A stretch of DNA of 64,000 nucleotides from Catellatospora vulcania. Its GTDB lineage: Bacteria > Actinomycetota > Actinomycetes > Mycobacteriales > Micromonosporaceae. The position numbers and the translations under genes are program-made. Below the pieces are notes generated by a model. It was not told the origin of the DNA, searched no databases, and saw nothing but the letters and a program-made list of their open reading frames with translations. The stretch's first letter is position 1, and each line of letters begins with the position of its first letter. Shown here one piece after another: positions 18,201 to 60,112 of the stretch. Location: contig NZ_ML769306.1 in assembly GCF_009720385.1 (NCBI RefSeq), forward strand, positions 1 to 64,000, in the 5' to 3' direction.

Positions 18201-19020
18201 TAAGTCCGCGCTCAACCTCGATGTCGAATTCTCCTCACAGCCCGGTTTCCAGTACGGATACCGGCCCACGTCCCGTGAGGACGTTGCTCTCGAACTAGCC
18301 TGGGCGGTGACAGTCCACAAGTCCCAGGGGTCAGAATTCGGTACGACGTTCCTGGTACTGCCCGCCCGCGCCGCTGTCTCCCGGGAACTCATGTACACAG
18401 CGCTGACCCGGCAGCGCGACCGGGTTGTCATCCTCCACGAAGGCACCCTCGCAGACTTGCGAGAACTGGCACAGCCGTGGCGCTCGGAGACTTCACGCCG
18501 CCTTACCGACCTGTTCACCGCACCGCAACCCGTATCCCTGACACAGCGTGGCCAGACCCGCCGCTACGACCACAAGCTGATGCACATGTCCGCTAGCGGC
18601 ATCCCTATGGCCTCCAAGAACGAGGTCATCATCGCCGGGATCCTGGACAAGCTCGCTCCGGGACGGTGGGAGTACGAGAGGCCCTACACCGGCGATGACG
18701 GCCGCGAGGTGCTGCCCGATTTCACCGTCTCGACCGCCGATGGCCGTACCGTGATCTGGGAGCACGCCGGAATGCTCGGCCTGCCGGACTATGCCCGGAA
18801 ATGGGAGCTGAAACAGGCGTGGTACGCCAACAACGGTTTCCTCCCGCATACAGCGGGCGGCGGTCGCAACGGTGTGCTCATGTGGACCGAGGACCTGAGA
18901 GGCGCCGACGCACAGCATTGGTCGAGACTCGCTGCCGAGGTCCTCGGGGTCGCCGACACCGAGTCAACCCTCGGCGCGGGTCGTCGGCCCGTGAAAAAGG
19001 CCGCACTGCCGCGCCGGTAA
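15202..19020 (+). CDS. RecD-like SF1 helicase with C-terminal nuclease-like domain
   Basis: 1272 aa if read from ATG 15202; GTG 15238 and ATG 15262 (MRVPWRDRAWD) are credible later starts. The N-terminal domain opens with VPWRDRAW and two cysteines, followed by about 550 residues of unknown fold. The helicase core has Walker A GPAGTGKTT (about 648-656), Walker B VVIDEAS (about 727-733), VGDPRQLPPI (about 755-764), a VHKSQGSE box (about 1037-1044) and TALTRQRDR (about 1063-1071). The tail carries VLPDFTV (about 1170) and IWEHAGM (about 1184), matching the D...E-x pattern of PD-(D/E)XK-like nucleases seen behind such helicases. A role in cutting or unwinding invading DNA is inferred. Confidence 0.8.
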   Translation: MRTHAERDRSVAVSSIQHLSMRVPWRDRAWDQFICDDPLGNSSCTLLTNIGPRRVDAFEAANASAAIDTVDQDRLPCLSERATFMSPVGYTINKTHPYSWHHALKDRIHPTAVSLPGFAFEAVPFRWLNRATLAEDVTLNRVPKYDASAEDRVDAILGFDNLAWVMDGRNQRAVIDAFFEPVVADESLVFVYLKHSPLQEQRNDRLLVGAAMITKVTLPAVWNETGSPPFSSSMWETVVEHSLRPDMNNGILLPYQQLVPLLDKGVDIDAALAWAPEGRRVEFSYVTEHLSDDAAIEALAALERAALGMRRIGVEIPDAALHWLAMQTERLWQVRGSAPGLAAVLATVGVTQPHVAARAVTEQVGQEDPWPSLERWLADPNAAPVPLRQHLSRLVGRVWSKLPAEWQRALRLLSGFDVTTEQVKMLTAGQTDVELSVTELLENPYFAATCTYGMLQHVPFATVDRAFFPPTHVVWKAPAVDGVALEEHLDRRRIEALLTDVLERQGAQGDTVVPQAEAIDLANARNLSQPPALTEILLTGLDLDHDSVIDWPDWSPLTSVLLADESPAYKLTRFEETSRVIRDWIGAQEKRAGLGALTDARSALDAALDRDQDAVTETADELEERARTEKAAGLSALHDAALSVLIGPAGTGKTTLLRALVDYPDVADGGVLLLAPTGKARVQLETKVGRPAKTLASFLASSSRYDGETGRYLVQGESKPRRGFGLVVIDEASMLTEEMLAATFDAFTGVKRMILVGDPRQLPPIGAGRPFVDLVNKLRPETFISWHRVGAGYVELQVPRRQLPDGSRDTRHDLELASWFGDGGRGAGDDAIWDELAAEPNRPTVRYVPWGGRTAVQALTDVMQEELGLDARHPNAEWAFALTYGATVNGEYLNWELGAGPRAEKWQILAPTRSRAFGTVELNRHVKRTYRASDTRFAQRSLGANIPKPIGPELIVRGDKVMQTVNRRQKAYPQVGGLDYVANGEIGVGIGRVIPTQKLPKSALNLDVEFSSQPGFQYGYRPTSREDVALELAWAVTVHKSQGSEFGTTFLVLPARAAVSRELMYTALTRQRDRVVILHEGTLADLRELAQPWRSETSRRLTDLFTAPQPVSLTQRGQTRRYDHKLMHMSASGIPMASKNEVIIAGILDKLAPGRWEYERPYTGDDGREVLPDFTVSTADGRTVIWEHAGMLGLPDYARKWELKQAWYANNGFLPHTAGGGRNGVLMWTEDLRGADAQHWSRLAAEVLGVADTESTLGAGRRPVKKAALPRR

Positions 19021-19108: not shown

Positions 19109-20787
19109 CTAGCCTCGCTCTTTCACGAGCGTCGGGCTACATAGTAGATCTTGAAAGCGACAACGTCTCTCATCTGGAACGATAGGACTTGTCTAGGGTC
19201 CAGAACCACTGCAGGAGAGACACTCTCCGTGTGCAGACTACCTTGTCGGTTCCGAAGCTCGTCGTCACGGGCGACGGCCGCGGTGTGGTCGGGCGGGCCG
19301 GGACCCGGCTGCTGGCCGACCTCGCCGACGCCACGGCCTGACCAGCGGCTTCGGCGTCCCCCTCGCGGTCGCGGGACAGCGTTCGGGAGGTCACGACGCG
19401 GGCCGGGTCGCCCTCAACCTGGCGCTGTCGGTCGCCGACGGAGGCAGAGCGATCATCGACCTGGGCGTGCTGCGCCCAGCCCGAACTGTTCGGGCCGGTC
19501 GCCTCGGACCCGACGGCATAGCGGGTCCTGGAGATGATCGACATCGCGGCGCTGAGCAGGCTGCGGGCGGCGCGCCGCCGCCCGCGAGGTCGCCTGGGCG
19601 CAGCTGCGCGAGACCCACGGAGCCCTCCCGGCTTCCACCGCCGCTGGCGGCGACGTGCCCGGTCTGGTCCTGGACATCGACGCCACGATCGTGATCGCCC
19701 ACTCGGAGAAGGAACAAGCCACCGCGAAGTGGAAGAAGACCTTCGGCTACTACCCGCTGCTGTGCCTCCTGGACAACACCCGCGAGGCCCTGGCCGGGCT
19801 GCTGCGTCCCGGCCGGGGCCGGGTCCAACACTGCCGCCGACCACATCGCTGTCCCGAACATGGCCTTGGCGCAGATCCCCGACCCGCACCGCCACGGCAC
19901 CGACATCCTCGTGCGCACCGACGCCGCAGGCCACACCACCGGATTCCTGCACCACATCCACGACCTGCGCCAACACGATCTGTCGACCTACTTCTCGGTG
20001 GGCGTGCCCGTCACCGCGCCGATCCGCGACGCCCTCGTCCACGCCAGCGCCTGGATCGACGCCCTGGACACCGACGGCGAGCTGCGCGACGGCGCGCAGG
20101 TCGTCGAGCTCACCCACCTCGTCGCCGCCGAGGTCCTGGCCGTCTACCCAGCCGGGACCCGGCTGATCGCCCGGCGCGAACGCCCGCACCCCGGCGCGCA
20201 GCTCGACCTGTTCGGCACCGTCGAAGGATGGCGCCACCAGGTCATCGCCACCGACACCCCCGTCAGCGCGGGCTCGATCCAGTACCTGGAGGTCCGCCAC
20301 CGCGGCCACGCCCGCGTCGAGGACCGGATCCGCTGCGGCAAGACCACCGGGCTGGGCCGGTTCCCATCCCGCGTGTTCTCGATCAACGCCGCCTGGCTCG
20401 AACTCGCCCTGACCAGCCAGGATCTGCCCACCTGGGCCCAGCAACTGCTGCTGGAAGGCGAACTCGCCCGCGCCGAACCACGACAACTGCGCTACCAGTT
20501 GCTGCACGTCGCAGCCCGCATCACCCGCGACGCGCGACGGGCCCGCCTGCGCATCCCGCGATCTGGCCCTGGGCATCCGAGCTGGCCACCGCGTTCGCCC
20601 GCCTGGCCGTACTCCCCAGACCAGCGACCTGACCCAGCCATTCATCCAGTGATTCCGCGACCAGGACACGGGAAACCCCGGTACCAAGCCGGGCCATCGA
20701 CGTGCCCGCCACCAGCACGAATCGATCACCATCGTCATGCAACGGGGCTCAAGGCAAGATCCATCGCTCGCGAAAGACCGAGGCTAA
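19109..20787. mobile_element. IS1380-family insertion sequence (defective)
   Basis: Ends are defined by 22-bp imperfect inverted repeats, 19109-19130 (CTAGCCTCGCTCTTTCACG...) and 20766-20787, with 19 of 22 matching. A GACG target duplication flanks it at 19105-19108 and 20788-20791. The 4-bp duplication and the 1.68-kb size fit IS1380. The transposase inside is frameshifted. Confidence 0.88.
19231..20632 (+). pseudogene. IS1380-family transposase, frameshifted
   Basis: Joined frames give a DDE transposase. LSVPKLVVTGDGRGVVGRAG starts near 19231 (GTG), then VLDIDATIVIAHSEKEQATAKW (about 19660) carries the first catalytic Asp. TDILVRTDAAGH and YFSVGVPV follow in another frame from about 19860, then RVFSINAAWLELALT. 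The last residues (WPWASELATAFARLAVLPRP) return to the earlier frame and stop at 20632. At least three or four frameshifts break the gene, so the copy cannot transpose unaided. Confidence 0.85.
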
Positions 20788-20845: not shown

Positions 20846-23800
20846 TCAATGCGATACTGCTGTGTCCGTGCAGGACAGCAATTGCTCGATGACGTCTCGG
20901 CCCGAGTAGTCTCGAGCATTTGGATACATCAGCCAATGGTCAGCAATTTCCTTCAATTCGGTATGGTCCGCCGTGGAACCCCAAAGCCATGCCCACACAT
21001 GGTGCCAACGCTTATGATCAGGACGATTCCGAAGCAAATTGATGGCCATGCCCCACAGGCCATCGAGTTCGTACCCTTCGTCCCACAACGTCTTCCACAT
21101 TCTAAGCCATTGACTCTTAAACTGGTTCCTCGACAGCCATCCATAACCGCTGCGGCTGAGGTCGATTCCCTCCGCTCCAGATTGCTTAGCCAACAGCCAG
21201 ACTTGCGCCCACAGCACGGTGTCCGGTGACAGTTCGGCGAGTCGGGCCGCGATGATATGCCCGAGTTTGCTCGAAGCACCGTGTCGCAAAACAGTTTCGG
21301 CTACCGCACACCAGTTTTTGTTGACTTTGGCACACGAGAGCCACTCCCCCGCCAGAGCCGACAGGCGCTCCCTTCCCGTGAAACTGCGCTCCCACGAATC
21401 TCTCCACACACGGGACCAACGCGCCATGATCGAATTGTCTTGAGATCGCACATAGGCGTGCAACTGATCCTGGGCTACCACGAGCAGCCGTTCGACCATT
21501 TGCGGCTGGCCGAGGCACTGCGACCAGACAAAATGCCAGCCATGCCGCCCCAGCGTGTTGCCCTCAAGCCACACCAAAGCCATTTCTCTAATACGCGAGA
21601 GCTCGACGTCACCCTCCCGCAGCGCTTCCCAGACATGCGGCCACCGATATTCTGTCGGACTATCTTGGAGCCAGCACAAACCGATTGGTGCGAGTGCCCC
21701 TCTGTCTGAACCAGCTTCCCAGAGTGGTTCCCAAACAGAGGGCAGTGCATGAGAGCCGAATCCACGCAGGAGCCAGTTTTGACCCACCGCAGCAAGCCGG
21801 CGCGCGTCGCATCGGGCATCCCACAATACTCTCCACGCCTTCGTCCACATGGCATGCTCCGGACAGCTTTCGAGCCAAGCAAGACCTATCTCCGTCAGGT
21901 CGTCCGCCCGGCCCTGTGCCTCCCAGGTCGCCTGCCAAATATTCGGCCACTGCTGATGTTCTTCAGAATTTCGAAGAAGCCATGAGACTCCCACATCGGC
22001 CCGCCCGTAGCGTGATGCCAATAGCCTTACCACGTGACTCCGGTCCGACGAGTCAGACGCCAACCATTCCGACGCCCACTTCGCGAGCTCCGGGTCATGT
22101 GGTGCATATTTCAATAGCCGCTCGAGCAGGACCACGATTTCGCGGTGTGCCCGATTGCCCTCCAGCCAAGCGAGTACCGAACGCAGGTAGCGAGCAGTAT
22201 CGCGTTCAAGTAGAAGGATCGCCACCTCGCACCACGAGGTCGTCAGCGGCGCATTCTGCAAGAGAGCAGCGGACCGGTCGAGAAGGCGCGAACTCCCGCC
22301 GACCTTTCCCACCGCGCCGGCTAGCACGTCGCCGATCATCAGCTTCCCAGACCTGGTAACGCTGAGCCAGTGTTCAATTACGGCACCCAGCCGCGGATCC
22401 CTTAGCTTTTTCGAGGCATCGATCACAAGTGGCCGGAATTCGTGCCAGGCAAGACTTCTGCCGAGCAGATCGACAATGCCATCGGCAACGCCCGTCAGGC
22501 TAGCCCAATGCTGAAGCAGCTTATGACAGGTCAGCCGGATCCCAGGCAAGGTCACGTCAGCATCGCGGAGGCAGTTAACGGCTTGAGTAGCCGGATGCGG
22601 CGTCCACTCGATCGACGGCAGATTTGCAGCGATCTCAAGCCATACCGGCAAGTCGCCGAGCGGCAGTCCTCTATCTCTGACTCGCTTCTGGAATATGGTA
22701 TAGAGCAAATCACCTACGTTATCCTCAGCAATCCTGGAGCTCAGGTCGCCCGTTCTGTCAACGAGAGCCCTGGACAGCGCCCACAAAGGCGCAGCGGCTC
22801 CGGCCGGACCCTCTCCGTAAGCATCACAGTCCGCGATGGCGCTTAAGAGGTGGCCGCGCCGGACGTTGGTTTCTACTCCAGGCGGAAACCACACGTCGTA
22901 CATCAAATTTGCGATCTGAGGGTGAGATATCCAGGTATCCTGCCGAGAGCCAGCACCCCGATTCTCCAGGTGCTCGTCGGCTTGAAGGGCTGCCATCGCG
23001 TCACGCTGCCGTGGCGTCAGCACCGCCTCGAAAGCGCGAGCTGGATAGCCGACATAAAGCCTATTCAGCGCCATTACTCTCGCGACAACCTCGAACACCT
23101 GGCCATCCGAGTCCATCGAGCGAATCCGCGCTCGGAACCGGGCAGCGAACTCCTTGAGCGACGATCCGTGATGCTTCTCGAAGAACAATTGAACAAGAAG
23201 CATATTCGGAGAATGTGCGCGACTAAGTTCAAGGCCGGTTCGGCGGACGAACCACTCTCTCAACTGGTCATAATCTTCCGCCGCCTCATTCGCCACCAGA
23301 CTTTGCCTGACGATTAGTGCATCTACGAAGTCGTTGCTCAAATTAAGAGCCTGCTCAGTAGGCCCACAGCAGACAATGAGAGGAAGGCTCTCACCTTCGC
23401 CCCGCTGTCGCAGGTCGTCGACGCGAGCGAGAGCATCGTGCCAATGAGCTGACGCTTCCACAGAGGAGACTTGGTAGGGATCGTCGATGGCGATCACCGA
23501 CAACAAATCCGAGTCAGGGTCACACTCCTCGGCGCGCTGAACCCACTCTATCGCTCGGCCCAGAAGCCCAGAATTGCTACCAAGCCAAATCACGCGCACG
23601 ATTCCACGGTCATGCAAGTCCGCCAGAAGCTGCAAGAGAAGTACGCTCTTCCCCACGCCCGAACGGCCTGCCAGCCAGAAAACCGGCAGTTTTACGGTGT
23701 TGTCCACGAAGGCCGGTCGCGATTCCTGCCACTCCCAGAACTCCCGCCGGACGCGGTCAAGCACTGCGGGGCGAGGCGCGAAATAACCGTCACGAAGGTG

Positions 23801-24682
23801 ATAGATCATCGGCCGTTGGCCAGTAAGATAGGCTCCGGGCTCAGTCTGCGGTGGAGGAGAAAACTCGTCGCGCCACAGTTGAATGTCGCCGGATCTCCTT
23901 TTGTTGTTGTCGAGACCTACGAGGTCATTCCAGATGTCTCTCGCAACACTTGCGAAACCGTGCTCGTTCTCACTCGCCTCTATCAGACGGGCCAGCCACG
24001 TGCGGGCAAGTCCGACGGGATCCGGCGCCCTTAACCTCTCGTGCAATAGCGCGTGTAGTTCCCTAGCGGGATCTACGATCTTGTTGATTGAGACGGCCGC
24101 TATGAAGTCCTCGACCTCCTGCGTCGAAATATTCTCGATAACACGTCGAGCGAGCCACTTGCCCACCTGCGCCTCGACGACCTTGGTGTCCGACTCCGCC
24201 GCCTGAAGTTGGAACCGCAAGCGTGGCCGAAGCTCCGCGAAGTCCTCGGCAAGGCGGTAGATGTCCCACAACTCGTCGAGGGCCGCACCAACGGATTGAC
24301 TCGTGAGTCGGCGCTTGATCTGCGTGACGATCACGGTCTGGTTTCCGATTACGCGTACATCCGAGAGGGATTCGGCTACTACGGAATACGAACCGGCCGC
24401 ATTGTTCTCGAGAAACCGGACCACGGTACTCAGCAAGGTAGCCTGGAATTGATAATGGAACCCGGCTACTGCGTTCCTGCCGCCGTCTGCATGACGTGGT
24501 CTAAGTTGTCTCCATCTCTGTTCGAGTCGCCGAACGTCAGCCAGCATCTCGTGAGCTCTCAACGCATGCGGAGATGGTCTTGCCCGACTCCTGAGTGGCG
24601 ATAGCGATGCGCTGGTACCTAGAACGTGGACGCGGGCACATCCTGCCATTCTGACCACTGTGTTTGCACCGCGCAAGAGCAT
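20846..24682 (-). CDS. STAND NTPase with DUF4297 nuclease domain and Trp-rich repeats
   Basis: 1278 aa from the first start; ATG at 24547 (residue 46) is preferable because the conserved part starts at GGRNAVAGFHYQFQ (about 67). That region with VVAESLSDV and VTQIKRR (about 101-124) is a DUF4297-type PD-(D/E)XK nuclease domain with E, D and QxK present. The NTPase core has Walker A LAGRSGVGKS (about 337-346) and Walker B LLSVIAIDD (about 393-401). The C-terminal 450 residues hold about nine repeats of 33-38 residues of the form W-x2-VW-x2-LW...L..IGL.WL, a likely ligand sensor. The layout matches Avs-type immune NTPases: nuclease, STAND, sensor. It is flanked by inverted IS1380 remnants. The trigger is unknown. 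Confidence 0.8.
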   Translation of the reverse strand: MLLRGANTVVRMAGCARVHVLGTSASLSPLRSRARPSPHALRAHEMLADVRRLEQRWRQLRPRHADGGRNAVAGFHYQFQATLLSTVVRFLENNAAGSYSVVAESLSDVRVIGNQTVIVTQIKRRLTSQSVGAALDELWDIYRLAEDFAELRPRLRFQLQAAESDTKVVEAQVGKWLARRVIENISTQEVEDFIAAVSINKIVDPARELHALLHERLRAPDPVGLARTWLARLIEASENEHGFASVARDIWNDLVGLDNNKRRSGDIQLWRDEFSPPPQTEPGAYLTGQRPMIYHLRDGYFAPRPAVLDRVRREFWEWQESRPAFVDNTVKLPVFWLAGRSGVGKSVLLLQLLADLHDRGIVRVIWLGSNSGLLGRAIEWVQRAEECDPDSDLLSVIAIDDPYQVSSVEASAHWHDALARVDDLRQRGEGESLPLIVCCGPTEQALNLSNDFVDALIVRQSLVANEAAEDYDQLREWFVRRTGLELSRAHSPNMLLVQLFFEKHHGSSLKEFAARFRARIRSMDSDGQVFEVVARVMALNRLYVGYPARAFEAVLTPRQRDAMAALQADEHLENRGAGSRQDTWISHPQIANLMYDVWFPPGVETNVRRGHLLSAIADCDAYGEGPAGAAAPLWALSRALVDRTGDLSSRIAEDNVGDLLYTIFQKRVRDRGLPLGDLPVWLEIAANLPSIEWTPHPATQAVNCLRDADVTLPGIRLTCHKLLQHWASLTGVADGIVDLLGRSLAWHEFRPLVIDASKKLRDPRLGAVIEHWLSVTRSGKLMIGDVLAGAVGKVGGSSRLLDRSAALLQNAPLTTSWCEVAILLLERDTARYLRSVLAWLEGNRAHREIVVLLERLLKYAPHDPELAKWASEWLASDSSDRSHVVRLLASRYGRADVGVSWLLRNSEEHQQWPNIWQATWEAQGRADDLTEIGLAWLESCPEHAMWTKAWRVLWDARCDARRLAAVGQNWLLRGFGSHALPSVWEPLWEAGSDRGALAPIGLCWLQDSPTEYRWPHVWEALREGDVELSRIREMALVWLEGNTLGRHGWHFVWSQCLGQPQMVERLLVVAQDQLHAYVRSQDNSIMARWSRVWRDSWERSFTGRERLSALAGEWLSCAKVNKNWCAVAETVLRHGASSKLGHIIAARLAELSPDTVLWAQVWLLAKQSGAEGIDLSRSGYGWLSRNQFKSQWLRMWKTLWDEGYELDGLWGMAINLLRNRPDHKRWHHVWAWLWGSTADHTELKEIADHWLMYPNARDYSGRDVIEQLLSCTDTAVSH

Positions 24683-24908: not shown

Positions 24909-25382
24909 TTAGCCTCGGTCATTCATGAAGTTTCGGATCTTGGTCCGAGTTGGCCAACCTGCTGGTGTCTGTCGATTGAGCCTGGTGGCGGGCATGCTTA
25001 TGGCCCGGCATCGGCCGGGTTTCTCCGTGGCCTGGTCGCGGGGACGCTGAATGAATGGGCTTGATCAGGTCGGTCAGTGGTCTGGGAAGCGCGGCGAGGC
25101 GGACGAATGCGGTGGCCAGTTAGGCGGCCCAGGGCCAGGTCGCGTGGATGCGCCGGTGGACCCGTCGCGCGCCGCGGGTGATGCGGCCGGCGACGTGTAG
25201 CAACTGAAAGCACGGCCGTCGTGGTTTGGCTCGGGCGAGTTCGCCTTTAAGGAGCAGGCGCTGGGCCCAGGTGAGCAGGTTTTGGCCGGTGAGGGCGAGT
25301 TCCAGCCAGACGGCGTTGATCGCGAACACACGGGACGGCAGGCGGCCGAGGCCGGTGGTCTTGGCGCAGCGGATGCGGTCCC
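24909..25382 (-). mobile_element. Truncated second IS1380-family element (3' end)
   Basis: An inverted-repeat end at 24909-24930 (TTAGCCTCGGTCATTC...) matches the right end of the element at 20766-20787. Reading leftward from 25382, a transposase C-terminus follows (DRIRCAKTTGLGR, VFAINAVWLELALTGQ, LLHVAGRITRGARR). Homology stops abruptly at about 25382. The copy lies in opposite orientation to the first, with the STAND gene between them. Confidence 0.8.
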
Positions 25383-26640
25383 CAAGGAGGAAATCGGCCA
25401 AGGTCATCGACCGTCAGGGCCGAAGGTCCCTACCCCCGGTGTGATCAGAGCAGTTCGACGGCAGGCGCCCAGACAGCGGACGTGAGACTGCGCGACGGCG
25501 GTATTGTCGCGAACACTCTTCTGCCCAATCCGGCATCCACCCAGCCGACGATCTTCGGGCCACGCCACCGCAGGCGGCTGGGCCGGAGTGCGACTCGGCC
25601 CGGGGCTGGACCTGGTCCGGCTCACCGCCAGCCTGGCCGAGACGGCGCGGCTGTCATCCCGCTCATCCGCGCTGCCGGTGTACCACTACCGCTGGGTGCC
25701 CAGCGTCCGGTTCCTGTACGCTGCCGTACCCGGCCAGATCGTTCCGATCCGGCTGTGCAGACCGTCGCCGTGGTCGGCTATGCCGCCGTCGGACTCGCTC
25801 GCGACGTCTTCGCCGCCCGTGGCCCAGTGGGTCAAGGTGTCCACGAGCGGTGTACTCAACCACGGCCAGCGATCAATCCACGACGAACGTGCGGAAGCGG
25901 GGTGTCGAGCTGCTCAGTCAGCGGGGCGCGCGGTGCCCTGCACGTAGTTCGTGAACCTGGTCTCTTGCCCAGACCGCGTTCAAGCTGGGCGCTGTCCCAC
26001 CCCCAGGCGCGGCTATCTCCCGCTCCTGCGCACTACCGGTGGACCACTACCGCCGGGTGACCGGCGTCCGGTTCCCGTACATAGTCCCGCCCGGCCAGAT
26101 CGTTCCGGCCCGGTCGCGCAGACATCGCCGTGGTCGGCCATGCCGACGTTGGCCTCGCTCGCGGCGTCTTCGCCGCCCTGGGCGCGGGTGGGTCAAGGTG
26201 TCCACGAGCAGTGGACTCGACCTCGGCCGGCGGTCCAGCGCACATCACGGGTTCCCGAGGTGTTGACACCCAGGGAGGACGAGCTGTCTCACCAGATGCC
26301 TGGGCCACAACGCCTAACATCCCAGAAACCTCGGTCAAGGCCAGTGGCACATCTCTTCCAAGCCTGTGCGGCGTCGAAGACCTGCGGTTACGGCGTGAGC
26401 ACGTGCCTCGAGCGTGTCACCACAGTCCACAAACGACCGAGATTCTGATCGCCGCCGGACCGGGCCGACGGCACGTCCCGCGCGCATGATCATGAAGACT
26501 TCCGTGGCCATTTCCTCTGCCCACCAGGGTATCTGAGAGTAGTACCCAAGATCCGTCAGGCCACACCAAGATCAAAGAAGCCTTGGCCAGCTCGGACCAC
26601 CAAGTTCCGTGGGCGGGGTTCGTCAAAACCGTACGCTCGT
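25383..26640. other. 1.25-kb region without an intact gene
   Basis: Between the truncated IS and the island end no frame keeps a plausible protein. Two diverged direct copies of a 200-bp segment fill much of it (next entry). The rest holds nothing I recognise. Confidence 0.4.
25655..26240. repeat. Two diverged direct repeats of about 200 bp, offset 360
   Basis: About 25655-25870 and 26010-26235 align in the same orientation. Shared blocks include CCACTACCGC, CGTCCGGTTCC, CCGGCCAGATCGTTCC, CATCGCCGTGGTCGGC-like, and GGGTCAAGGTGTCCACGAGC. Similarity extends upstream to GGCGCGGCT. Neither copy has an open frame on either strand that I can name. They look like a duplicated, decayed gene segment. 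Confidence 0.6.
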
Positions 26641-26723: not shown

Positions 26724-26798
<75 letters not shown>

Positions 26799-49399: not shown

Positions 49400-50725
49400 A
49401 TGAGCGCGCTCCTGCGCACCATAAGCGTCCTGCTGACCTCAGCAGTCGCCGTCACCGCCTGCTCGTCGCCCGACGCGTCCCCGGGCGGCAGCACCGCCTC
49501 GGCGTGCGCCCCGTCGGGCGGCGGGCCGGTCACGCTGACGTTCACGTCCTGGATCCCCAACATCGAGCAGGTCGTGCAGGCCTGGAACGCCAAGAACCCC
49601 GACATCCAGGTCAAGGTCCAGACCGGTCCGAACGGCAACGGCGGCACGTACCAGAACTTCTTCAACCAGCTGAAGGCGGGCAACGCTCCCGACCTCGGCC
49701 AGATCGAGTACGACGCCCTGCCCGGGTTCCGGGTCCAGGACGGCCTGTTCGACCTGGGCGCCTGCGACATCGTCGCCAAGGCCAAGGACCAGTTCGTGCC
49801 GTGGACCTGGAACCAGGTCAGCCTCGGCGACCCGGCCGCCGCCTTCGGGGTCCCCCAGGACACCGGCCCGATGGCGCTGTTCTACCGCGCCGACCTGTTC
49901 GACAAGGCCGGTATCGCCGTGCCGGCCACCTGGCAGGAGTACGCGGCGGCAGCGGAGAAGGTCAAGGCTGCGGGCGGCTACATCACCAACTTCTCCCAGA
50001 GCGACATCAACCAGTTCGCAGGGCTGGCCTGGCAGGCCGGAGGCAACTGGTTCGGCAACGACGGGCAGAAGTGGACCGTCAACCTGACCGATGACAAGAC
50101 CACGAAGGTCGCGAAGTACTGGCAGGACCTGATCGACCGCAAGCTCGTGTCCTCGGTGCCGCCGTGGACCACCGAGTGGGACAACGCCTACAACACCGAC
50201 CAGGCATGGACCTGGGTCTCGGCGGTGTGGGGCGCCAACTCGATCGCGACCGGGGCGCCCAAGACCGCGGGCAAGTGGCGGGTAGCGCCGATGCCGCAGT
50301 GGAGCAGCGGCGAGGCCAGCGCGGGCAACTGGGGCGGATCGTCCACGGCCGTGTTCAAGTCTTCCAAGCACCCGTACGAGGCCGCCAAGTTCGCCCTGTG
50401 GCTGAACACCAGCGATGAGGCGCTGACCCTGCTCAACCAGAAGGCCAACCTGTACCCGGCGACCAAGGCCGGGGCGAACCTGCCCGCCCTGACCGGCGGC
50501 GTGGCGTTCTACGGCGACCAGAAGATCTACGAGGTGTTCGCCGCCGCGTCGGCGCAGGTCCCGGCCGGGTTCACGTGGGGGCCCAGCATGACGGCTACCT
50601 ACGCCAACGCCTCCGACGGGTTCAAGGCGGCGGTCTCGGGCAAGGGCACCCTCGTCGACGCCCTCACCGGAGCTCAGGCCTACACCGTGCAGACCCTCAA
50701 GAACCAGGCGATCCCGGTCGCCTGA
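49400..50725 (+). CDS. Sugar ABC transporter substrate-binding lipoprotein
   Basis: 441 aa with a lipoprotein signal ending AVAVTAC (Cys at about 21). The extracellular-binding-protein family 1 fold shows as LTFTSWIPNIEQVVQAWNAKNPDIQVKV, GQIEYDALPGF, GPMALFYRADLFDKAGI and W-lined later segments (GNWGGSSTAVFKSSKHPYEAAKF). It is the last gene of the GH42 operon. The ligand is probably a beta-galactoside or galacto-oligosaccharide. A hairpin follows the stop. Confidence 0.92.
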   Translation: MSALLRTISVLLTSAVAVTACSSPDASPGGSTASACAPSGGGPVTLTFTSWIPNIEQVVQAWNAKNPDIQVKVQTGPNGNGGTYQNFFNQLKAGNAPDLGQIEYDALPGFRVQDGLFDLGACDIVAKAKDQFVPWTWNQVSLGDPAAAFGVPQDTGPMALFYRADLFDKAGIAVPATWQEYAAAAEKVKAAGGYITNFSQSDINQFAGLAWQAGGNWFGNDGQKWTVNLTDDKTTKVAKYWQDLIDRKLVSSVPPWTTEWDNAYNTDQAWTWVSAVWGANSIATGAPKTAGKWRVAPMPQWSSGEASAGNWGGSSTAVFKSSKHPYEAAKFALWLNTSDEALTLLNQKANLYPATKAGANLPALTGGVAFYGDQKIYEVFAAASAQVPAGFTWGPSMTATYANASDGFKAAVSGKGTLVDALTGAQAYTVQTLKNQAIPVA

Positions 50726-50744
50726 GCACGTCGTACGTCATGCT

Positions 50745-50776
50745 GCGGGCCGGGCTCCGGAAGGAGTCCGGCCCGC
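50745..50776 (+). terminator. Terminator of GH42-ABC operon
   Basis: A 14-bp stem (50745-50758 with 50763-50776, one G-U pair) and 4-base loop lie 19 bases after the binding-protein stop. Confidence 0.72.
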
Positions 50777-50949
50777 GAGCACATGACTGCCGATGCCTGG
50801 TGTCCCGCCGCCATGGCCGAGCCGCCGGCCCAGTGGATCCTGCACCACCCGGCCCACCGTGATCGAGCTCGTGCACACCACGACGTCAGGGTCCTCGATC
50901 GTCACGTCGAGCTCGTTGCCCTCACCTTGCAGCTTCAGGAGGTGGGCCG

Positions 50950-52808: not shown

Positions 52809-52959
52809 TTCGCGCGGCTCGCCGGTCGCCACTCACCGGCTTCCCGGCACCTGTCACGCACGCTGACCGGCGCGGTCGAATTCGTGCGGCAGCTCGCCAG
52901 CCGGCGACATGTGCCACCGCGACAGCCTGACAAGCCCAGCGCCTCAGGACTGATCTACG

Positions 52960-53003
52960 GGCCGCCAGGATCCGCCGGCGTACACCGGCGGATCCTGGCG
53001 GCC
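52960..53003. terminator. Long hairpin downstream of CHAP gene
   Basis: A perfect 19-bp stem (52960-52978 with 52985-53003) with a 6-base loop lies 152 bases after the CHAP stop. Its length and GC content favour a terminator or RNA-stability element. No T tract follows. Confidence 0.6.
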
Positions 53004-53445
53004 TTGACACTGTGCCATTCCGCTGGCCAACGCTCGGGCGGCCCAGTGAGCATGGCACGCACGTGCCACGGATCGGGGCCGTCCTTGTCGTCAGCGCGGC
53101 TGACAAGACGCGAAGCGGGTCCCCCACCGTTCGCCCCACCGCCGGCGTACGGCTTGTCGGCGCGCTGGCGGGCGCTGCAGGGTTCCGCGGCTGATCGGGT
53201 CGCGTTCGGCCTTGCAAGGTTGGGCCTGACCGAGCACCCCGGCCAGCGACTGTGCCTTGCCGTCCAGCTCGTCCCACCACCGACCGACTGACCACGCCAC
53301 AGCTCAAGGGCACCGAACGCGTCAGGCCGACCACTGTGATGATCTCGGTTACCCCGCTCCGCGAGCGGGTATGTCGCACCGATCCAGCAGACTGGGCGTC
53401 ATCGCTCGGTCGGTTCTTGCTCATGGGAGTGTGGCGGTGCCCGGG
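53004..53445. other. Intergenic region before GTPase operon
   Basis: About 440 bases with no plausible gene. It should carry the promoter of the two-gene GTPase operon; no clear -35/-10 pair stands out. Confidence 0.3.
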
Positions 53446-56400
53446 ATGACCGGACAGGACAGTGGCGCCGAGTTCCAGCGAGCCTGCGCTGCGGCGGTGG
53501 CCCAGAGCCGGCCGGTCGCCGCCGGTCTTCGGGAGATGGTGGAGCGGCTGTGGGTCGCGCTGCACGAGAGCCAGGGCGCCAACGCATCCGGCGAGCCGGT
53601 CACCGACGAAGTCGACCTGCTCACCGGGCGGACCAGCGCGACGCTCCGCAGCATGGTCACCGATCAGCTCGCCGAGATCGACACGTTCAACGTGGTCTTC
53701 TTCGGGCGCACCGGCGCCGGCAAGAGCACTCTCATCACCGCGCTGGGCCGGGGCGACGGGACCCTGATCTCGCCTGGGGACAACGACTTCACCACCGAGG
53801 TGGGCGCGTTGCTCTGGCAGGGCAGCAGGTTGGTGGACACACCGGGCACCGGCGGCTGGGGTCGCACTGTCGACGCCGCACAGCTGCACGAGCGTGCCCG
53901 CGCGGCGGTCCGCACGGCCGATCTCGTGCTGCTGTGCTTCGACGACACGGTCACCCAGATCACCGAGTTCGCGGAGATCTCCCGATGGGTTGCCGAGTAC
54001 GGCAAGCAGGCCATCGCGGTCCTCAACATCAAGAACGCGCTCTGGCGGCAGCCGCCCCGGGTGCCCGATCCGGCGTTTCGCCGCCAGCTGTCCGACGCCG
54101 TGGCGCAGTCGGCACTCTGGTTGCAGGGCCAGCTCAGCGAGATCGGCCTGCCGGAGGTGCCGATCGTCGCGGTCAACAGCAGGCGTGCCGCCTTCGCCCG
54201 GCTGCCGGAGACCTACGACGGCTACGACGCGGCGACGTTCCGCAAACATCGGCGCGACTACGGCGTCGAGAACCTGATGGCCTGGTCGCACGTGTCCACC
54301 CTGGAACGGCTGATGACCCGGGCGATCACGACCGACGCGGTGGGGCTGCGGCTGGGTTCGCTGAGCCGGCAGCTGGTGTCCGAAGCGTCGGCCGGCGCCC
54401 GCACGCTGACCGAGCTGGCCGAAGACCTGAGGTCCCGGGCGGTCGTCGTCGAGCAGGCCGTGGCGGAGGTGCTGTGGCTGTTCGGCGATTCCCGGCAGCT
54501 GTACCGGGCAGCCGGGCCCGAGGCCCTGTCACCGCAGGCCGTGACGGTGCTGAACGAGCTCGATGAGCTCCAGCGGCGCAGTGACCAGACGATCTTCTCC
54601 AGCCGCCCGGGTGTGGTGGTGGAATTCGTGACGAACCTGCAGATCTCCCAGTTCGGCCGGTTGGAACGCGACGCCCTGCGCCGGGCGGAGGTGCTGGTGG
54701 ACGACGCCTACGCGCGCAATCGCATGATCGACGCAGCGGAGTTCGCCGGCACGGTGTTCCGGCAGGCGGAGATGGAGCACGCGGTGGAGGCGGTCGCCGC
54801 GGCCTTCACCGCCCACCTGCGGCACCGCCTGGACGCCGCCGAGGCGAACCTCCAGGTCAACCTGGCGCCCACCGGCGCGTCCTTCGACGGCAGCGCGGGC
54901 AAGGGACTGCGGGTCAGCGGCAACGCCGTCCGGTATGGCTCGGCCATGGCCGCGGCCGGCACCATCGTCTTCCCACCGATGGCTCTGGTCGGCATCGTCG
55001 GAGACATCATCGGCCGCAGGTTCCGCAAGAAGGGACTGATCCGCCAGCGTGAATCGAGGGCGGTCGCGCTGGCCCAGGCAAGGACGACCGTGCACGCGAA
55101 CTTCCAGCAGCTGTCGCAGCAGGTGCGCGGCAGGCTGCTCAGGCTCGCCTTCGACCAGGTCGTGGTCTCGATCAGCGAGCTGGTGAGGGCCGGGCTGGCG
55201 CTGCGCGAGCAGCAGCATCGGGCGGTGTGCCAGGCCAGGCTGCTGACCGACTTCTGCGCCGCGGTCGGCCCGAGCGGCCTCGGTCAGCACGCGGTCGCCA
55301 CCGCGGTCGCCTCGATCGAAGCCGAGTACGCCGCGACCGGGCGTCCCGGGCGGCGGGTCTGGCTCGGCGACGACTGGGTTGACGAGGCCGTGGACGCCCA
55401 GGGCACGCCCACCGGTCACGACGGCGTGCGGCCGTTCCCGGCCGAGCACCGGGTCGTCGCCGCCCGGGTCGCGCAGACCCTTCGACGCTCCCGCCCGCCG
55501 GCTGCGGGGTCCGCCGAGCGGTGGCTTCGCGCGTGGTCGAGCGACCCCGACGACCCGGCCGCGGAGGCGGTGGTCGCGCAGCTTCGGCTGCTCCATGCCG
55601 AACAGGCCCCCCGGGTGGTGGTCATCGGCGATCGCGGCACCGGCAAGACCTCGCTGATCAGGCGGATGACGCAGCTCACCGGGGCCCGGGTGCACATCGA
55701 GCCGGGCCCGACCGGGCAGGTGCACACATACCCGTGGGAGGGCGTGACGCTCGTCGACACACCCCCGCTGGGCGCCGACGGGCAGGCCATGGACGCCACA
55801 CTCGACGCCGCCTTCATCTGGTATGTGCTGAGCCCCAACCTGACCGCCACCCCGTATCTGAGCACCGTCCTGGTCGGCGACCCGCAGCACGGCATCCTCC
55901 CCCTCGCGGACCGGGTGGTGTTCGTGCTCGGACACGCCGACGTCATGGGCGCGGACCCGGTCGACTCACCGGAGGAGTTCGTGCTCCGCTGCCGGCGCAA
56001 GGAGGCCGAACTGCTCGGCGAGCTGCATCGGCTGCAGGGTCGGCAGGACCGTCCGGTCAGCTCCGTTCAGGTGGTGTGCCTGGCGCCGGACCCGGTGACC
56101 GGATCCGGCACCCCGGCCGATTGGGACGGCACCGCCGACTTCGCCGACGGTTGGCGCTCGGCCCGGGCGTGGCTGATCCCCTCCGGTGTCGACGTGGGTG
56201 TGCTGCGAGGCGCCGTCGCACGGATGACCAGGCTCCGCACACAGGCCGCGGCGGCGCAGGCCGGCCTGGAGGAGGAGATGGCGGGCCTGGCGATGCTGCA
56301 GGCCGACCTGAAACTGCGGTTGGAGAATGCCATCGCGCTGCGTGCCGTGGCCGTCGACCGGCTCGACTGGATCATCACCGGGGCGATCCGCGCTCACCTG

Positions 56401-57069
56401 GACCAGTGGGACATGGCGCTGGACAAGGAGGTGCAGGCTGCCATCGCGCGGCAGATCCTCACCATCGGGGATCAGCCGGACCTGCAGGCCCACATCAACG
56501 AGTGGGCCGCGACCGCCCAGCGGCAGGTCGAGCATTGGGCGCAGGACATGCAGACCTACGATCCCGGCAGCACCGTGCCACACCAGCGGGACCCACGCCT
56601 GCGCCTGCAGGCCAGGTTCCTTCAGCGCGCCACCGACACGGCCCTGGTGGCCAAGGCGGGCAGCGCGGTCTCGGCGCTGGCCAGACTCAAGTCGGTCGGG
56701 CGGTTCGCAGCGCAGGGCAGCAAGGTCGCTTCGCGGTTCGTGCGGATCGCACCGTTCGTGCCGCTGCTTGCCACCACCGCGGAAGACCTGTTCAGCGCGC
56801 GTTCCCGCAAGCGCCGCGAGGGTGAACGCGAGCAGGGTGAGGCCAGGCTGTTCGAAGACGCCCGGCGGTGGGTAGCCCAACTTGTCGAGGCCCACGCGGG
56901 CCTGTCGTGGCTGTGGGCACAGGGTGGCCTGCTGGACCAGGCGATCAACGAGGTCTCGGCGGAGCTGCGGCAGGACACCGAACAGATCGAGCAGATCAAG
57001 GCAAGGTTGGGCCGCTACGACAGAGCGCGGCAGTCGGCGATCGGGCTACTTGAGGGAGATCACGCATGA
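53446..57069 (+). CDS. Large dynamin-like protein with two P-loop GTPase domains
   Basis: 1207 aa from ATG 53446; GTG 53431 is an alternative. The first GTPase domain has G1 GRTGAGKST (about 87-95), G3 DTPGTGGWG (about 130) and a weak G4 region (LNIKN). Helical arms follow, then a hydrophobic stretch AMAAAGTIVFPPMALVGIVGDII (about 500-522), like the membrane paddle of bacterial dynamins. A second P-loop domain has GDRGTGKTS (about 728-736) and DTPPLGADG. Long coiled helices and a second hydrophobic patch (FVRIAPFVPLLA) complete it. Its stop overlaps the start of a second GTPase gene (ATGA). Membrane remodelling or defence is inferred. Confidence 0.75.
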   Translation: MTGQDSGAEFQRACAAAVAQSRPVAAGLREMVERLWVALHESQGANASGEPVTDEVDLLTGRTSATLRSMVTDQLAEIDTFNVVFFGRTGAGKSTLITALGRGDGTLISPGDNDFTTEVGALLWQGSRLVDTPGTGGWGRTVDAAQLHERARAAVRTADLVLLCFDDTVTQITEFAEISRWVAEYGKQAIAVLNIKNALWRQPPRVPDPAFRRQLSDAVAQSALWLQGQLSEIGLPEVPIVAVNSRRAAFARLPETYDGYDAATFRKHRRDYGVENLMAWSHVSTLERLMTRAITTDAVGLRLGSLSRQLVSEASAGARTLTELAEDLRSRAVVVEQAVAEVLWLFGDSRQLYRAAGPEALSPQAVTVLNELDELQRRSDQTIFSSRPGVVVEFVTNLQISQFGRLERDALRRAEVLVDDAYARNRMIDAAEFAGTVFRQAEMEHAVEAVAAAFTAHLRHRLDAAEANLQVNLAPTGASFDGSAGKGLRVSGNAVRYGSAMAAAGTIVFPPMALVGIVGDIIGRRFRKKGLIRQRESRAVALAQARTTVHANFQQLSQQVRGRLLRLAFDQVVVSISELVRAGLALREQQHRAVCQARLLTDFCAAVGPSGLGQHAVATAVASIEAEYAATGRPGRRVWLGDDWVDEAVDAQGTPTGHDGVRPFPAEHRVVAARVAQTLRRSRPPAAGSAERWLRAWSSDPDDPAAEAVVAQLRLLHAEQAPRVVVIGDRGTGKTSLIRRMTQLTGARVHIEPGPTGQVHTYPWEGVTLVDTPPLGADGQAMDATLDAAFIWYVLSPNLTATPYLSTVLVGDPQHGILPLADRVVFVLGHADVMGADPVDSPEEFVLRCRRKEAELLGELHRLQGRQDRPVSSVQVVCLAPDPVTGSGTPADWDGTADFADGWRSARAWLIPSGVDVGVLRGAVARMTRLRTQAAAAQAGLEEEMAGLAMLQADLKLRLENAIALRAVAVDRLDWIITGAIRAHLDQWDMALDKEVQAAIARQILTIGDQPDLQAHINEWAATAQRQVEHWAQDMQTYDPGSTVPHQRDPRLRLQARFLQRATDTALVAKAGSAVSALARLKSVGRFAAQGSKVASRFVRIAPFVPLLATTAEDLFSARSRKRREGEREQGEARLFEDARRWVAQLVEAHAGLSWLWAQGGLLDQAINEVSAELRQDTEQIEQIKARLGRYDRARQSAIGLLEGDHA

Positions 57070-58910
57070 GTACGCACTGGGTGCACCGCCTGCGCGAGGC
57101 GATCGAAGCCGCCGCCGGGCCGCAGACCGCCGTCGCCGCCGACACCGCTTGGCGTCAGGTCGCCGATGCCGACACGCTGCGGGTCGTCGTCGTGGGTCCG
57201 TGGAGCGCCGGCAAGTCGAGCCTGATCAAGCGGTTGCTGGTGGAGGACGGCACGGCGGTCCCCGACTGGTTGACCATCAGCGCCTCCCGGGAGACCTACC
57301 AGATCCGCGAGGCACGCGCCACACGTGTCACCTACGTGGACACGCCCGGCCTCGGCAGTGACGAGCGCAAGCACGACCTCGTGGCGCTGTCCTCCGTAGC
57401 CGCGGCGGACCTGCTGGTGGTGGCGGTGACCCCGCAGCTGCTCGGCACCGACGTGGACCGGCTGGCGGCACTGGTGGACGGGACGGCGGTCTCCCCCCAC
57501 GGCGGCCGGTTCTTCCCACCGGGCGCGCTCGTCGTGGTCATCAGCAAGGCCGACCTGGCAGGCGTCGACCCGGTCGACGACCTCGACGGCTTCCGAGCCA
57601 TCGTCGAGCGCAAACGTGCCTCGGTGGCGACGGCGCTGGCACGCCACGTCCACGGCGAACTCCCGCCGATCATCGCGGTCGTGGCCGATCCGGGCGGGCA
57701 GCACTCGCGCAACCCCCGGCCGAACCCGGCTGCCTACGCCGAGGGCCGCGACTGGGACGGCGTGGCACAGCTGCGTGACCTGCTCGACAGCGCCGCCGGC
57801 CAAGTGCTGCGGTTGCGCGCCCTGGCGCAGGTGCGGCACTGGGCGAGGACCGGCGCGTCCGCGCTGGAGCAGGTGAGCGCGGCGTTGTCGGAGGCCGACG
57901 CGCAACTGCGCCAGGTTCACGCGGACCGGTCGCGGGTGCTGGTGCTGGAGGAGGAGCTCGCCGCGATCGACGCCTCAGCCGCCAGCCGGCTGCGCGATGA
58001 CATCCGCGACGAGATGCACAACGTGATCATGCAGGGCAAGGTGGAATCGACGGAGCAGCTGGCCGAGCAGATCAGCGAACGGCTCAACGCCTCCGTCGCG
58101 ACCTGGCACGCGGAGTCCACCGGCAAGCTGGTGGCACTGGCCAGACGCGCCCAGATCGAGCTGAACCCGCCGGCCCTCGGCCCCGGTGACACGGCCGGGC
58201 AGGTCGAGCAGTTCGTCAAGCACGCCGTGACCGCGGACTCCGGCTCCCCCGATGCCATGCTCGGCGACTTCGTGGCGAAGGGTCTGCTGCTCGCCGACAA
58301 GATGCAGGAGCTGCGTCTTGGCGTCAAGGCGGCCGACGTGCCGGCACACCTGAGCCAGTATCAGGCGCTGATCGACCGCCTCCACCCGGACGCCTACGCC
58401 AGAACGCTGACCCTGCTCAACGTCGAAGGCGTGCTGACCGACCCCGCCTACGCACAGGAGCTGGCGAACCTGCAGCGGCATGAGGGCGTCAGCGACCTGA
58501 TCAGCTACCTGCGCAAGCCCGGCGGCATCACCAGCCCTGGCCACGCGGAGAAACTGAAGAACACCACCAACACGCTGCGGATCGCCGCCGACGTCGCGCC
58601 GGTGCTGCTGGAGTTGCTGCGGACGCAGCAGCAGGAGAAGGCATCGCAGCTCCAGCGGGACAGGCGGGCACACCTGCAGGTGCAGGCCGACGGCGCCGCG
58701 AACCGGCAGGCTGAGCAGATCCTCGCCGGTGGTCCAGACGGTGCGGGCTGGCGGGGTCAGGTCGCCGAGCTGCGGGCCGCGCTGCGCTCCAGCGCTCCGG
58801 ACGACGACGCCGTGTCGCTGGCCGCCCAGCGGGGCCGGGACCTGACCGCCACGCGTGACCGCCTGGATGCGGTGCTCCGCGATCTGGCCACCTCCACGAT
58901 CGAGGGATGA
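57066..58910 (+). CDS. Dynamin-like GTPase, partner of upstream GTPase
   Basis: 614 aa, with ATG 57066 overlapping the upstream stop. The N-terminal GTPase has G1 GPWSAGKSS (about 44-52), a switch-region TISASRETYQI, G3 DTPGLGS (about 92-98) and G4 SKAD (about 160), so all key motifs are present. The rest is helical, with coiled-coil-like LEQVSAALSEADAQLRQVHADRSRVLVLEEELAAID and a long helical stalk. There is no signal peptide or obvious membrane helix, unlike its partner. Paired bacterial dynamins commonly form hetero-oligomers (family knowledge), which the four-base overlap supports here. Confidence 0.78.
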   Translation: MSTHWVHRLREAIEAAAGPQTAVAADTAWRQVADADTLRVVVVGPWSAGKSSLIKRLLVEDGTAVPDWLTISASRETYQIREARATRVTYVDTPGLGSDERKHDLVALSSVAAADLLVVAVTPQLLGTDVDRLAALVDGTAVSPHGGRFFPPGALVVVISKADLAGVDPVDDLDGFRAIVERKRASVATALARHVHGELPPIIAVVADPGGQHSRNPRPNPAAYAEGRDWDGVAQLRDLLDSAAGQVLRLRALAQVRHWARTGASALEQVSAALSEADAQLRQVHADRSRVLVLEEELAAIDASAASRLRDDIRDEMHNVIMQGKVESTEQLAEQISERLNASVATWHAESTGKLVALARRAQIELNPPALGPGDTAGQVEQFVKHAVTADSGSPDAMLGDFVAKGLLLADKMQELRLGVKAADVPAHLSQYQALIDRLHPDAYARTLTLLNVEGVLTDPAYAQELANLQRHEGVSDLISYLRKPGGITSPGHAEKLKNTTNTLRIAADVAPVLLELLRTQQQEKASQLQRDRRAHLQVQADGAANRQAEQILAGGPDGAGWRGQVAELRAALRSSAPDDDAVSLAAQRGRDLTATRDRLDAVLRDLATSTIEG

Positions 58911-59344
58911 CGTCACCGCTCGGCCGAACGCCGGCCTGCAGGCGAGCCCGTCGACGTCGGTGGTCTGGGCCCGGAATGGACAGCCGGGCCTCGGTCCACA
59001 TTGCTCGGCGTTCGGATCGGCACCCGGTTCCCACGTCTCTGATCTTCTGGGTATGTCTGGGTGTCTCAGCCTTCCGACCGGCGCGTGGCCGCGTCGTGGC
59101 AGGCACGAAGTCGCCAGGCACGGCGAAGACGGGGCGGCGCGGACGTGGTGCAGGCCGGTCCCGCCGGCCGGCATGCGCGGCGCGCCCAGATCCGGCCGCC
59201 CGCAGCCGCCACGCACCGCAGGCATCGACCGTTGTACGTACGTGGCACTCCGGCGGCCCCTCGCCGCCACCACCGACCGGCCCGAACGCCGTGGCGCGCC
59301 GACCTGCCGCTGCCGACGCCGCCGAGAAGGAGGCGCACTCCTCG
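58911..59344. other. Gap between GTPase operon and GGDEF gene
   Basis: About 430 bases. An open frame runs through but has shadow-like composition. I see no gene, and AAGGAGG at 59327-59333 belongs to the next start. Confidence 0.3.
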
Positions 59345-60112
59345 ATGTCGAACATCCTGACGACGCTGACGCTCGCGACGCTGGCCGCGGGAACCGCGCT
59401 GATCATCTGCCGGCTGACCGGCTCACGCCTGCGGCGGCGGCTGCTCGCCCGGCTGTGGCACGCGGTGCACGTCGACGCGCTCACCGGCCTGCCCAACCGC
59501 GCGGGCGCTTTGGACGAGCTGGGCCGCCGGTATGCCGACCACCGGCCGCTGAGCCTCGGCTTCGCCGACCTCGACCAGTTCAAGGCCCTCAACGACACCC
59601 ACGGCCACGAGGTCGGCGACCGGGCGCTGCAGCACATCGCGCTCGTGCTGCGCACGCACCTGCCGGACATGTTCGCCGCCCGCATCCACGGCGACGAGTT
59701 CGTGTTCGCCTGGCATGCGCTGCTGACCGACGCCCTGGCCCACGCCTGGCACGTACGGCACCTGGTCAGCGCGCACCCGCTGCGGCTGCCCGGTGGCGAC
59801 CTGATCGAGCTGCGCATGTCCGTCGGCGTCGCCGAGCGCAGCCTGACCGGCGACCTGCGGCTGCTGATGCACCACGCCGACCTGGCCATGCACGACGCGA
59901 AGACCAGCGACAGCGGCTGCGCCCCCTACAACCCGCACCATCACGCCACCGCGGTGGCGCCCCGGCCGGCACTACGCGTACGCGAACGCCGCCACACCGC
60001 ACCCCCGGCGCCCGCCGGCCCGCCCGTGACGCCTGCCGACGACACCGAAACGGACTCTCGACGGGCCGGGCGGGCCGGTTCGGCGGCCGGAGCCACGGAC
60101 CAGCGTGGATAG
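59345..60112 (+). CDS. GGDEF-domain protein with degenerate motif
   Basis: 255 aa from ATG 59345 with AAGGAGG eleven bases upstream. One N-terminal membrane helix (LTLATLAAGTALIICRL) precedes a GGDEF domain: DALTGLPNRAGALDELG, FADLDQFKALNDTHGHEVGDRAL, then RIHGDEFVF and MHHADLAMHDAK. The signature GGDEF is HGDEF; the first Gly is replaced, but the metal-binding Asp and the DEF residues remain. It may be a weak diguanylate cyclase or a nucleotide sensor. The C-terminal 70 residues are disordered, rich in Pro, Ala and Arg. Confidence 0.8.
   Translation: MSNILTTLTLATLAAGTALIICRLTGSRLRRRLLARLWHAVHVDALTGLPNRAGALDELGRRYADHRPLSLGFADLDQFKALNDTHGHEVGDRALQHIALVLRTHLPDMFAARIHGDEFVFAWHALLTDALAHAWHVRHLVSAHPLRLPGGDLIELRMSVGVAERSLTGDLRLLMHHADLAMHDAKTSDSGCAPYNPHHHATAVAPRPALRVRERRHTAPPAPAGPPVTPADDTETDSRRAGRAGSAAGATDQRG

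Follow-up and report, generated by a model that had tools for sequence, protein, structure and literature searches.

What do two adjacent genes for large dynamin-like GTPases do in the actinomycete Catellatospora vulcania, and which known system, if any, do they belong to? The genes encode proteins of 1207 and 614 amino acids and lie in the first 64,000 nucleotides (nt) of contig NZ_ML769306.1 (assembly GCF_009720385.1), hereafter the window. An earlier note, made from the letters of the window, had pointed to an unusual architecture, and had guessed at a role in membrane repair, vesiculation or anti-phage protection. The reading favored here, to which a probability of about 0.7 is given, is that the two genes form an anti-phage module that moves horizontally, is of the Leo/Eleos ('Dynamins') kind in a derived, tandem form, and acts at the membrane.

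The large protein matches the PADLOC LeoBC model along residues 10-576 (5.7e-91) and the LeoA model along residues 705-1187 (2.4e-38), and its partner matches the LeoA model at 1.1e-69; the large protein is therefore a LeoBC with a LeoA-like C-terminal unit, followed by a second, free LeoA. LeoBC matches were found in all 32 large proteins scanned, LeoA matches in all 29 partners (window included). General libraries returned mainly generic P-loop GTPase matches, along with weak Dynamin_N and LeoA-family ones. A profile of 12 large proteins matched the LeoA structure 4aur at 4.4e-9 over positions 710-902, two ribosome-associated GTPases (Der/EngA) scoring slightly above it via their GTPase (G) domains; the library search with the LeoA profile reached 4aur at only 1.4e-4. 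Membership in the Leo/Eleos system is firm at the sequence level. The build is one of three G domains in two chains, in which LeoBC continues into a fused LeoA paralogue and a further LeoA is free. Such a tandem build is uncommon, as had been noted, but it is conserved across phyla and is a form of the listed Leo/Eleos 'Dynamins' system, which the earlier note had not recognized. A literature search, made largely without subscription papers, returned no paper evidently about the fused LeoBC-LeoA form, and the three-G-domain form seems undescribed in the texts searched.

Two P-loops, GRTGAGKST (residues 87-95) and GDRGTGKT (residues 728-735), are set far apart in the single + strand reading frame of the large protein, and one, GPWSAGKS (residues 44-51), is found in LeoA. 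The two separate P-loop domains of the large protein and the ATGA overlap with the partner are thus as first described. Translation from an upstream TTG at 53257 would yield a large protein of 1270 residues; the gene caller likewise chooses the start at 53446. In 60 other loci, taking as leoA start the candidate closest to the upstream stop, a 4-nt overlap was found in 35, and the start lies -14 to +30 nt from that stop in 58. A sigma-70-type promoter was sought ahead of the gene pair and not found. The pairing is not a chance one, because the same pair recurs in 60 of the 69 related loci examined.

The AlphaFold2 model of the large protein (residues 5-1204, 32 sequences; predicted local distance difference test, pLDDT, 77.5) features two units, each a G domain with very long helices and a tip that is poorly determined; that of LeoA (29 sequences; pLDDT 84.3) a single unit of G domain and long helices. 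Structure prediction, suggested earlier as a check, points to two dynamin-like units in the large protein and one in the partner, and the order typical of the dynamin superfamily, a G domain and then a long helical stalk with a tip, is predicted in both. LeoA (4aur) and the bacterial dynamin BDLP fill Foldseek ranks 1-3 for both models; IniA, the bacterial dynamin pair 5owv/5oxf, mitofusins and MxA follow, and GIMAP2 ranks 42nd for LeoA. Since TM-scores are low (0.11-0.34, query-normalised) and the root-mean-square deviation often large, which is put down to hinge angles, these matches speak for the fold class only. The VIA-align rows, in which mitofusin/Fzo1 and generic G domains are mixed, support a G domain with a stalk and no specific family. 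The large protein has its main hydrophobic stretch around residues 500-518 (Kyte-Doolittle mean 1.91); this had been taken for a central paddle and is present, but belongs to the first unit. The two highest hydropathy peaks of free LeoA (1.99 and 1.46) fall within its G domain, and no clear membrane segment is seen in this partner.

Table 1. Features of the leo locus, in window coordinates
Feature	Position	Strand	Basis or remarks
Variable segment of ~6.2 kb holding only the two leo genes	52996..59176	.	Homology to the related genome L173 ends at 52995 and starts again at 59177
Gene of the large protein (1207 amino acids), LeoBC-like unit (residues ~1-640) fused to LeoA-like unit (residues ~700-1203)	53446..57069	+	PADLOC matches, tandem-unit model
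First G domain, residues 78-300	53677..54345	+	G1 GRTGAGKST, G3 DTPG, G4-like LNIKN without Asp; Pfam MMR_HSR1
Hydrophobic tip ('paddle') of first unit, residues 490-522	54913..55011	+	Hydropathy peak 1.91; low-confidence model tip between long helices
Second G domain, LeoA-like, residues 708-912	55567..56181	+	G1 intact, G3 = DTPP, G4 = GHAD
ATGA stop/start overlap between large-protein gene and leoA	57066..57069	+	Open reading frame coordinates
leoA (614 amino acids), G domain (residues ~30-250) then long helical stalk, without clear membrane segment	57066..58910	+	PADLOC LeoA 1.1e-69; Foldseek rank 1 = LeoA 4aur

The three G domains differ in their constraints. The G1 pattern GxxxxGK[ST] is found in all three in 61 of 61 sequences (large protein and LeoA, window included), and so is the G3 motif DxxG in the first unit and in free LeoA. 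The P-loops, whose failure to bind GTP would by the earlier note have counted as a refutation, keep their motif throughout. In the middle unit DxxG is kept in 56 sequences and lost in five, those of the window and of the Catellatospora loci L044-L047 (DTPP in four, DTPA in one). DTPP is also the middle G3 of the intergeneric copy L038, and DxxG is retained there in the diverged second copy of C. sichuanensis. At the G4 position unit 1 features LNx[RK]N, without the usual Asp, in 52 of 61 sequences, the other two G domains mostly [NS]RxD. Four close relatives are 93-98% identical in the unit 1 G domain (residues 70-300), compared with 73-87% over the whole protein, 70-87% in the middle G domain and 66-80% in the last stalk; for the distant L037 the identities are 47% (unit 1 G domain), 38% (middle G domain) and 27% (last stalk). 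The motifs suggest that the middle domain is a weaker GTPase; in the clade of the window it probably serves for binding or as a structural subunit, not as an active GTPase.

Relatives were collected by scanning species genomes with the alignment of the 12 large proteins (68 loci), and one locus on a Nostoc plasmid was added, for a total of 69; the patterns having been taken from fused proteins, the set favors fused relatives. The fused protein followed by LeoA was found in 60 loci. The other nine are contig ends (L084, L097), an h1-only locus (L089), a broken one (L100), one with a split frame (L106), and weak Planctomycete matches (L108-L111). Hosts of the fused build belong to four phyla, besides the Nostoc plasmid, and include many actinomycetes, Pseudomonas, Novosphingobium, and metagenome-assembled genomes of Spirochaetia and Verrucomicrobiaceae; all three Rhodococcus loci in the set (L058, L074, L098) have the tandem build. 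A classical build, with LeoBC of 698-842 and LeoA of 567-580 amino acids, was found in L117, L119, L121 and L122 (the DNA of L119 reads as a 699-residue gene followed by a 574-residue LeoA), and split leoC, leoB and leoA genes in L118; with the split type counted in, LeoA measures 565-580 amino acids. In the class of the pseudomonad, 4 of 369 genomes match LeoBC at 1e-25: the pseudomonad itself (fused), L119 (classical), L118 (split), and L120, a 595-residue frame left unclassified.

In a midpoint-rooted tree of 78 G domains, drawn from 23 fused and five classical loci, there is one group for unit 1, one for the middle unit and one for free LeoA. The last two are sisters (98/94), with classical LeoA placed elsewhere, and unit 1 clusters with classical LeoBC (100/98). 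The simplest account, by which a single LeoA duplication and a single fusion were followed by spread between phyla, is supported, not proven, because the bootstrap had yet to settle fully, rooting was by midpoint and the classical LeoA of L118 sits on a long branch.

The distribution is patchy close to the window. The pair resides in 6 of 11 Catellatospora genomes, one of which has a second, 35% identical copy, and in 17 of 150 Micromonosporaceae genomes at a loose cut-off, 12 of them clear (E<1e-80). Universal conservation in the lineage, which the earlier note had linked to a division or sporulation role, is not what was found: 5 of 11 congeners lack a match, and 138 of 150 family genomes a clear one. 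In a sample of the phylum (n=346) a LeoBC match at E<=1e-30 was obtained in the window's own genome only, a lower bound as three candidates were scored per genome. The Catellatospora genome G006 carries two different copies of the pair (L033, L037), with large proteins 34% identical to each other.

Mobility is read from flanks and identities. In 12 relatives' loci of ~20 kb (11 genomes) the two genes always adjoin, and flanks match the window at low identity only (24-37%). Flanks are in common between two Catellatospora loci (L032 and L034), and one type of gene is found at both L036 and L038; L037, L039 and L040, with diverged leo pairs, have one or two upstream genes in common, roughly 4-6 kb away, which may mark a shared insertion neighbourhood. 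The copy closest to that of the window is found in one genome of another genus (87% and 82% identity, vs. 73-76% in five congeneric copies). RecN runs the opposite way, being 81% identical to the genome of the other genus and 92-97% to four congeners, one genome (29%, a mis-extracted frame) being left out of this comparison. Leo proteins closer between genera, and RecN closer within the genus, are therefore a mark of horizontal transfer. Homology to the window resumes at 59181-59187 in three loci besides L173, and left-side homology ends at 50,723-50,782 in four. The CHAP and GGDEF flanks are common to the window and L173, in which a GGDEF-EAL gene occupies the place of the pair, so that insertion and replacement are indistinguishable there; no clean empty site was found among the compared loci, L173 being the only one with both flanks. 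A repeat-bounded insertion was rejected, the repeats in 52850-59300 being short or imperfect. So was carriage by phages or viruses, as neither protein was matched in 50,697 phage records at E<=1e-5, and in viral contigs the large protein had 26 candidate stretches, none of which was confirmed.

The company kept by the pair was monitored in 44 of the 60 loci by taking the nearest genes called by a simple script, up to three on each side (225 of 227 listed proteins, in sets of 113 and 112). Ten loci with a GC content of 60% or less, five Catellatospora loci and L072 (whose only neighbour exceeds 1500 amino acids) were excluded, as were two proteins of more than 1500 amino acids and, to stay within a residue limit, one of 1420 (L105) and one of 362 (L107). 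The two sets match 89 and 98 PADLOC families at E<=1e-20. Among the matches listed, 25 per set, are PglW, PglX, PglZ, BrxC, BrxD, BrxHI, BrxL, DpdE/F/J, SngB/C, DrmD and type I, IIG and IV restriction proteins, that is, systems of the BREX, Dpd, Shango and restriction types. For a control, 20 stretches were picked arbitrarily in four Micromonosporaceae genomes. Of their 117 proteins the first 113 were used, and these match three families: mad3 (seven members), RTasPolA (one) and LmuB (one); mad3 also matched three members of the first test set. The guess at an anti-phage role thus gains from the PADLOC defence models and from the neighbours of relatives set against the control, and an association with islands, named earlier as a check, is indicated around relatives' pairs and not seen in the immediate flanks of the window.

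Several observations weigh against a role in defence at the membrane. The seven neighbours scanned in the window (sugar-uptake genes, a CHAP protein, a GGDEF protein) have no defence match, and five of nine hand-picked large neighbours in relatives match no defence model. The family counts are counts of models, and models overlap, each of two PglW proteins matching 26 at 1e-10; the ratio to the control, which is narrower in taxonomy (Micromonosporaceae only), therefore overstates the difference. PADLOC labels are annotation, not functional tests, and the 'paddle' is weakly hydrophobic and falls in a low-confidence region of the model. According to the accessible text of PMC4159319, the leo genes of enterotoxigenic Escherichia coli (ETEC) are tied to vesicle release, not defence, and ETEC LeoA alone bound neither nucleotide nor lipid. 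It still holds that several whole defence families reside beside relatives' pairs, and that none of these is found in the control.

For the fused form we infer the following scheme of docking, subunit roles, trigger and defence. LeoA would have been duplicated once, one copy being fused to the C-terminus of LeoBC and the other remaining free. The LeoBC unit, which carries the most constrained G domain, would use its hydrophobic tip to dock on the cell membrane, and the fused LeoA-like unit would serve as a permanently attached partner, fixing a 1:1 LeoBC:LeoA' core comparable to the head-to-tail fusion of DynA. Upon disturbance of the membrane by infection, free LeoA would join the core by nucleotide-dependent contacts between G domains, and the assembly would block phage release or genome entry by clustering, tethering or remodelling the membrane. 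A more specific proposal, which is tentative and has the odds somewhat against it, is a conserved immune dynamin of three distinct G domains, with a duplicated LeoA as covalent, in some lineages catalytically silent subunit of a LeoBC docked on the membrane, and a free LeoA as nucleotide-gated assembly switch. If true, this would be an asymmetric three-part dynamin with labour divided between motor, scaffold and trigger.

The pair might instead be a general module for membrane repair or envelope stress, similar to DynA, any effect on phages being a by-product of membrane sealing. Fold and tandem layout are like those of DynA, to which the accessible text of PMC8844932 assigns membrane surveillance against antibiotics, a repair role is speculated for Cj-DLP1/2 in that of PMC6104087, and the neighbours in the window are not defence genes. 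Yet nothing at the locus is matched by the DynA model NCBIfam NF052648 at E<=1 (its top score in the genome, 13.2 bits against a cut-off of 1600, falls elsewhere), on which membership in DynA was rejected, free LeoA matching it at chance level (E=0.024) in the general library scan; a patchy, mobile distribution and the defence neighbours of relatives are moreover unlike a maintenance gene, and make repair unlikely. A module for vesicle release, as proposed for ETEC LeoABC, is very improbable in spite of the homology to LeoA and LeoBC and of vesicle cargo being roughly halved in ETEC leo deletions (PMC4159319, accessible text). ETEC is an outer-membrane organism with a periplasmic LeoA and the host of the window an actinomycete, and the vesicle mechanism is therefore not directly transferable. 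Just as improbable is a system directed, in defence or competition, at plasmids and other mobile elements instead of phages: one relative resides on a mobilizable Nostoc plasmid and the distribution is mobile, but the neighbours of relatives include many families listed as anti-phage, and we know of no plasmid-related phenotype of Leo proteins, no search having been aimed at this. Least credible, and rejected on the patchy distribution, is a division or sporulation dynamin of the Streptomyces DynA/DynB type, a role that paired actinobacterial dynamin genes would suit, but for which too many genus and family genomes lack a clear match, and the pair resides at different sites in relatives.

Other elements of the window are set apart from the anti-phage module proposed here. 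A diguanylate cyclase frame (58907-60112), which also overlaps leoA by ATGA, was rejected as a third gene of the operon: the gene caller starts it at 59345, DNA homology to relatives starts only at ~59177, and in none of 12 other leo loci does a cyclase adjoin the pair (one has a 37% relative ~4 kb downstream). The GGDEF protein at 59345-60112 (+) is small, hydrophobic at its N-terminus and endowed with an HGDEF motif; the upstream extension of the mechanical frame over leoA is probably false. The leo pair lies outside a lower-GC element of 23 kb (3547-26767) bounded by a perfect 44-nt direct repeat of the 3' end of tRNA-Pro(ggg) (3547-3590 and 26724-26767), with a tyrosine-recombinase-like gene (3759-4961, -; XerA chain at 3e-9) beside the left copy; the whole looks like a tRNA-integrated mobile element. 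Inside it reside a 1272-residue helicase-like protein (15202-19020, +; PADLOC defence candidate PDC-S68 at 1419.8 bits) and a 1278-residue protein (20846-24682, -) with a weak nSTAND NTPase match just under the Pfam cut-off and no PADLOC match at 1e-5, around whose gene a 245-nt inverted repeat is found (20312-20556 and 25146-25390, 83% complementary, 4.6 kb apart).

Among known systems, mycobacterial IniA has the bacterial dynamin fold, and is presumably not a LeoBC/LeoA pair. The paired DynA and DynB of Streptomyces serve in division or sporulation, and the lineage-wide conservation expected of them is not seen for the window's pair (6 of 11 genus and 12 of 150 family genomes). These proteins are named among dynamins in PMC6104087, the accessible text of which also describes Campylobacter Cj-DLP1/2, a heterotypic pair from adjacent genes; its fold is similar (5owv/5oxf), and it has two units and no fusion vs. 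three units in the window's pair. Bacillus subtilis DynA, whose head-to-tail fusion is compared there with the Cj-DLP heterodimer, has two dynamin units in one chain of ~1200 amino acids (model length 1187), and delays phage lysis (PMC8844932, accessible text); the likeness is one of analogy, not membership, and the window differs by the extra free LeoA next door. The classical ETEC type, LeoBC with LeoA or split LeoC, LeoB and LeoA, has homologous units in the same order and no fused LeoA copy; given the third, LeoA-derived unit on LeoBC, the window's pair is therefore not filed under it. Evolution, by tying LeoA to LeoBC, has fixed part of the subunit stoichiometry; the fused form could ease a biochemistry that failed in ETEC, where sufficient LeoB and LeoC were not obtainable (PMC4159319, accessible text), and the roles of the three G domains are separately testable.

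The closest system is Eleos/'Dynamins' (PADLOC PDLC03841, PDLC03839), reportedly first described by Millman et al. in 2022, and linked by Cury et al. in 2024, it is said, to the GIMAPs, immune GTPases of animals. Accessible parts of the sources describe Eleos as extremely enriched in Rhodococcus (PMC10482375) and as a Dynamins-like system often co-occurring with Dynamins (PMC11811056), LeoA/LeoBC as 'dynamins' with an anti-viral function (PMC10999152, a genome paper), Dynamins in a Pseudomonas island hotspot (PMC12629846), and an integrative element whose defence island holds LeoABC (PMC13335696). The window's genes are likewise two, adjacent and mobile, and both proteins match the models of the system; they differ in that LeoBC carries a second LeoA-derived unit, making three G domains vs. 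two, and annotation by LeoBC and LeoA matches alone may thus hide a separate subtype that crosses phyla.

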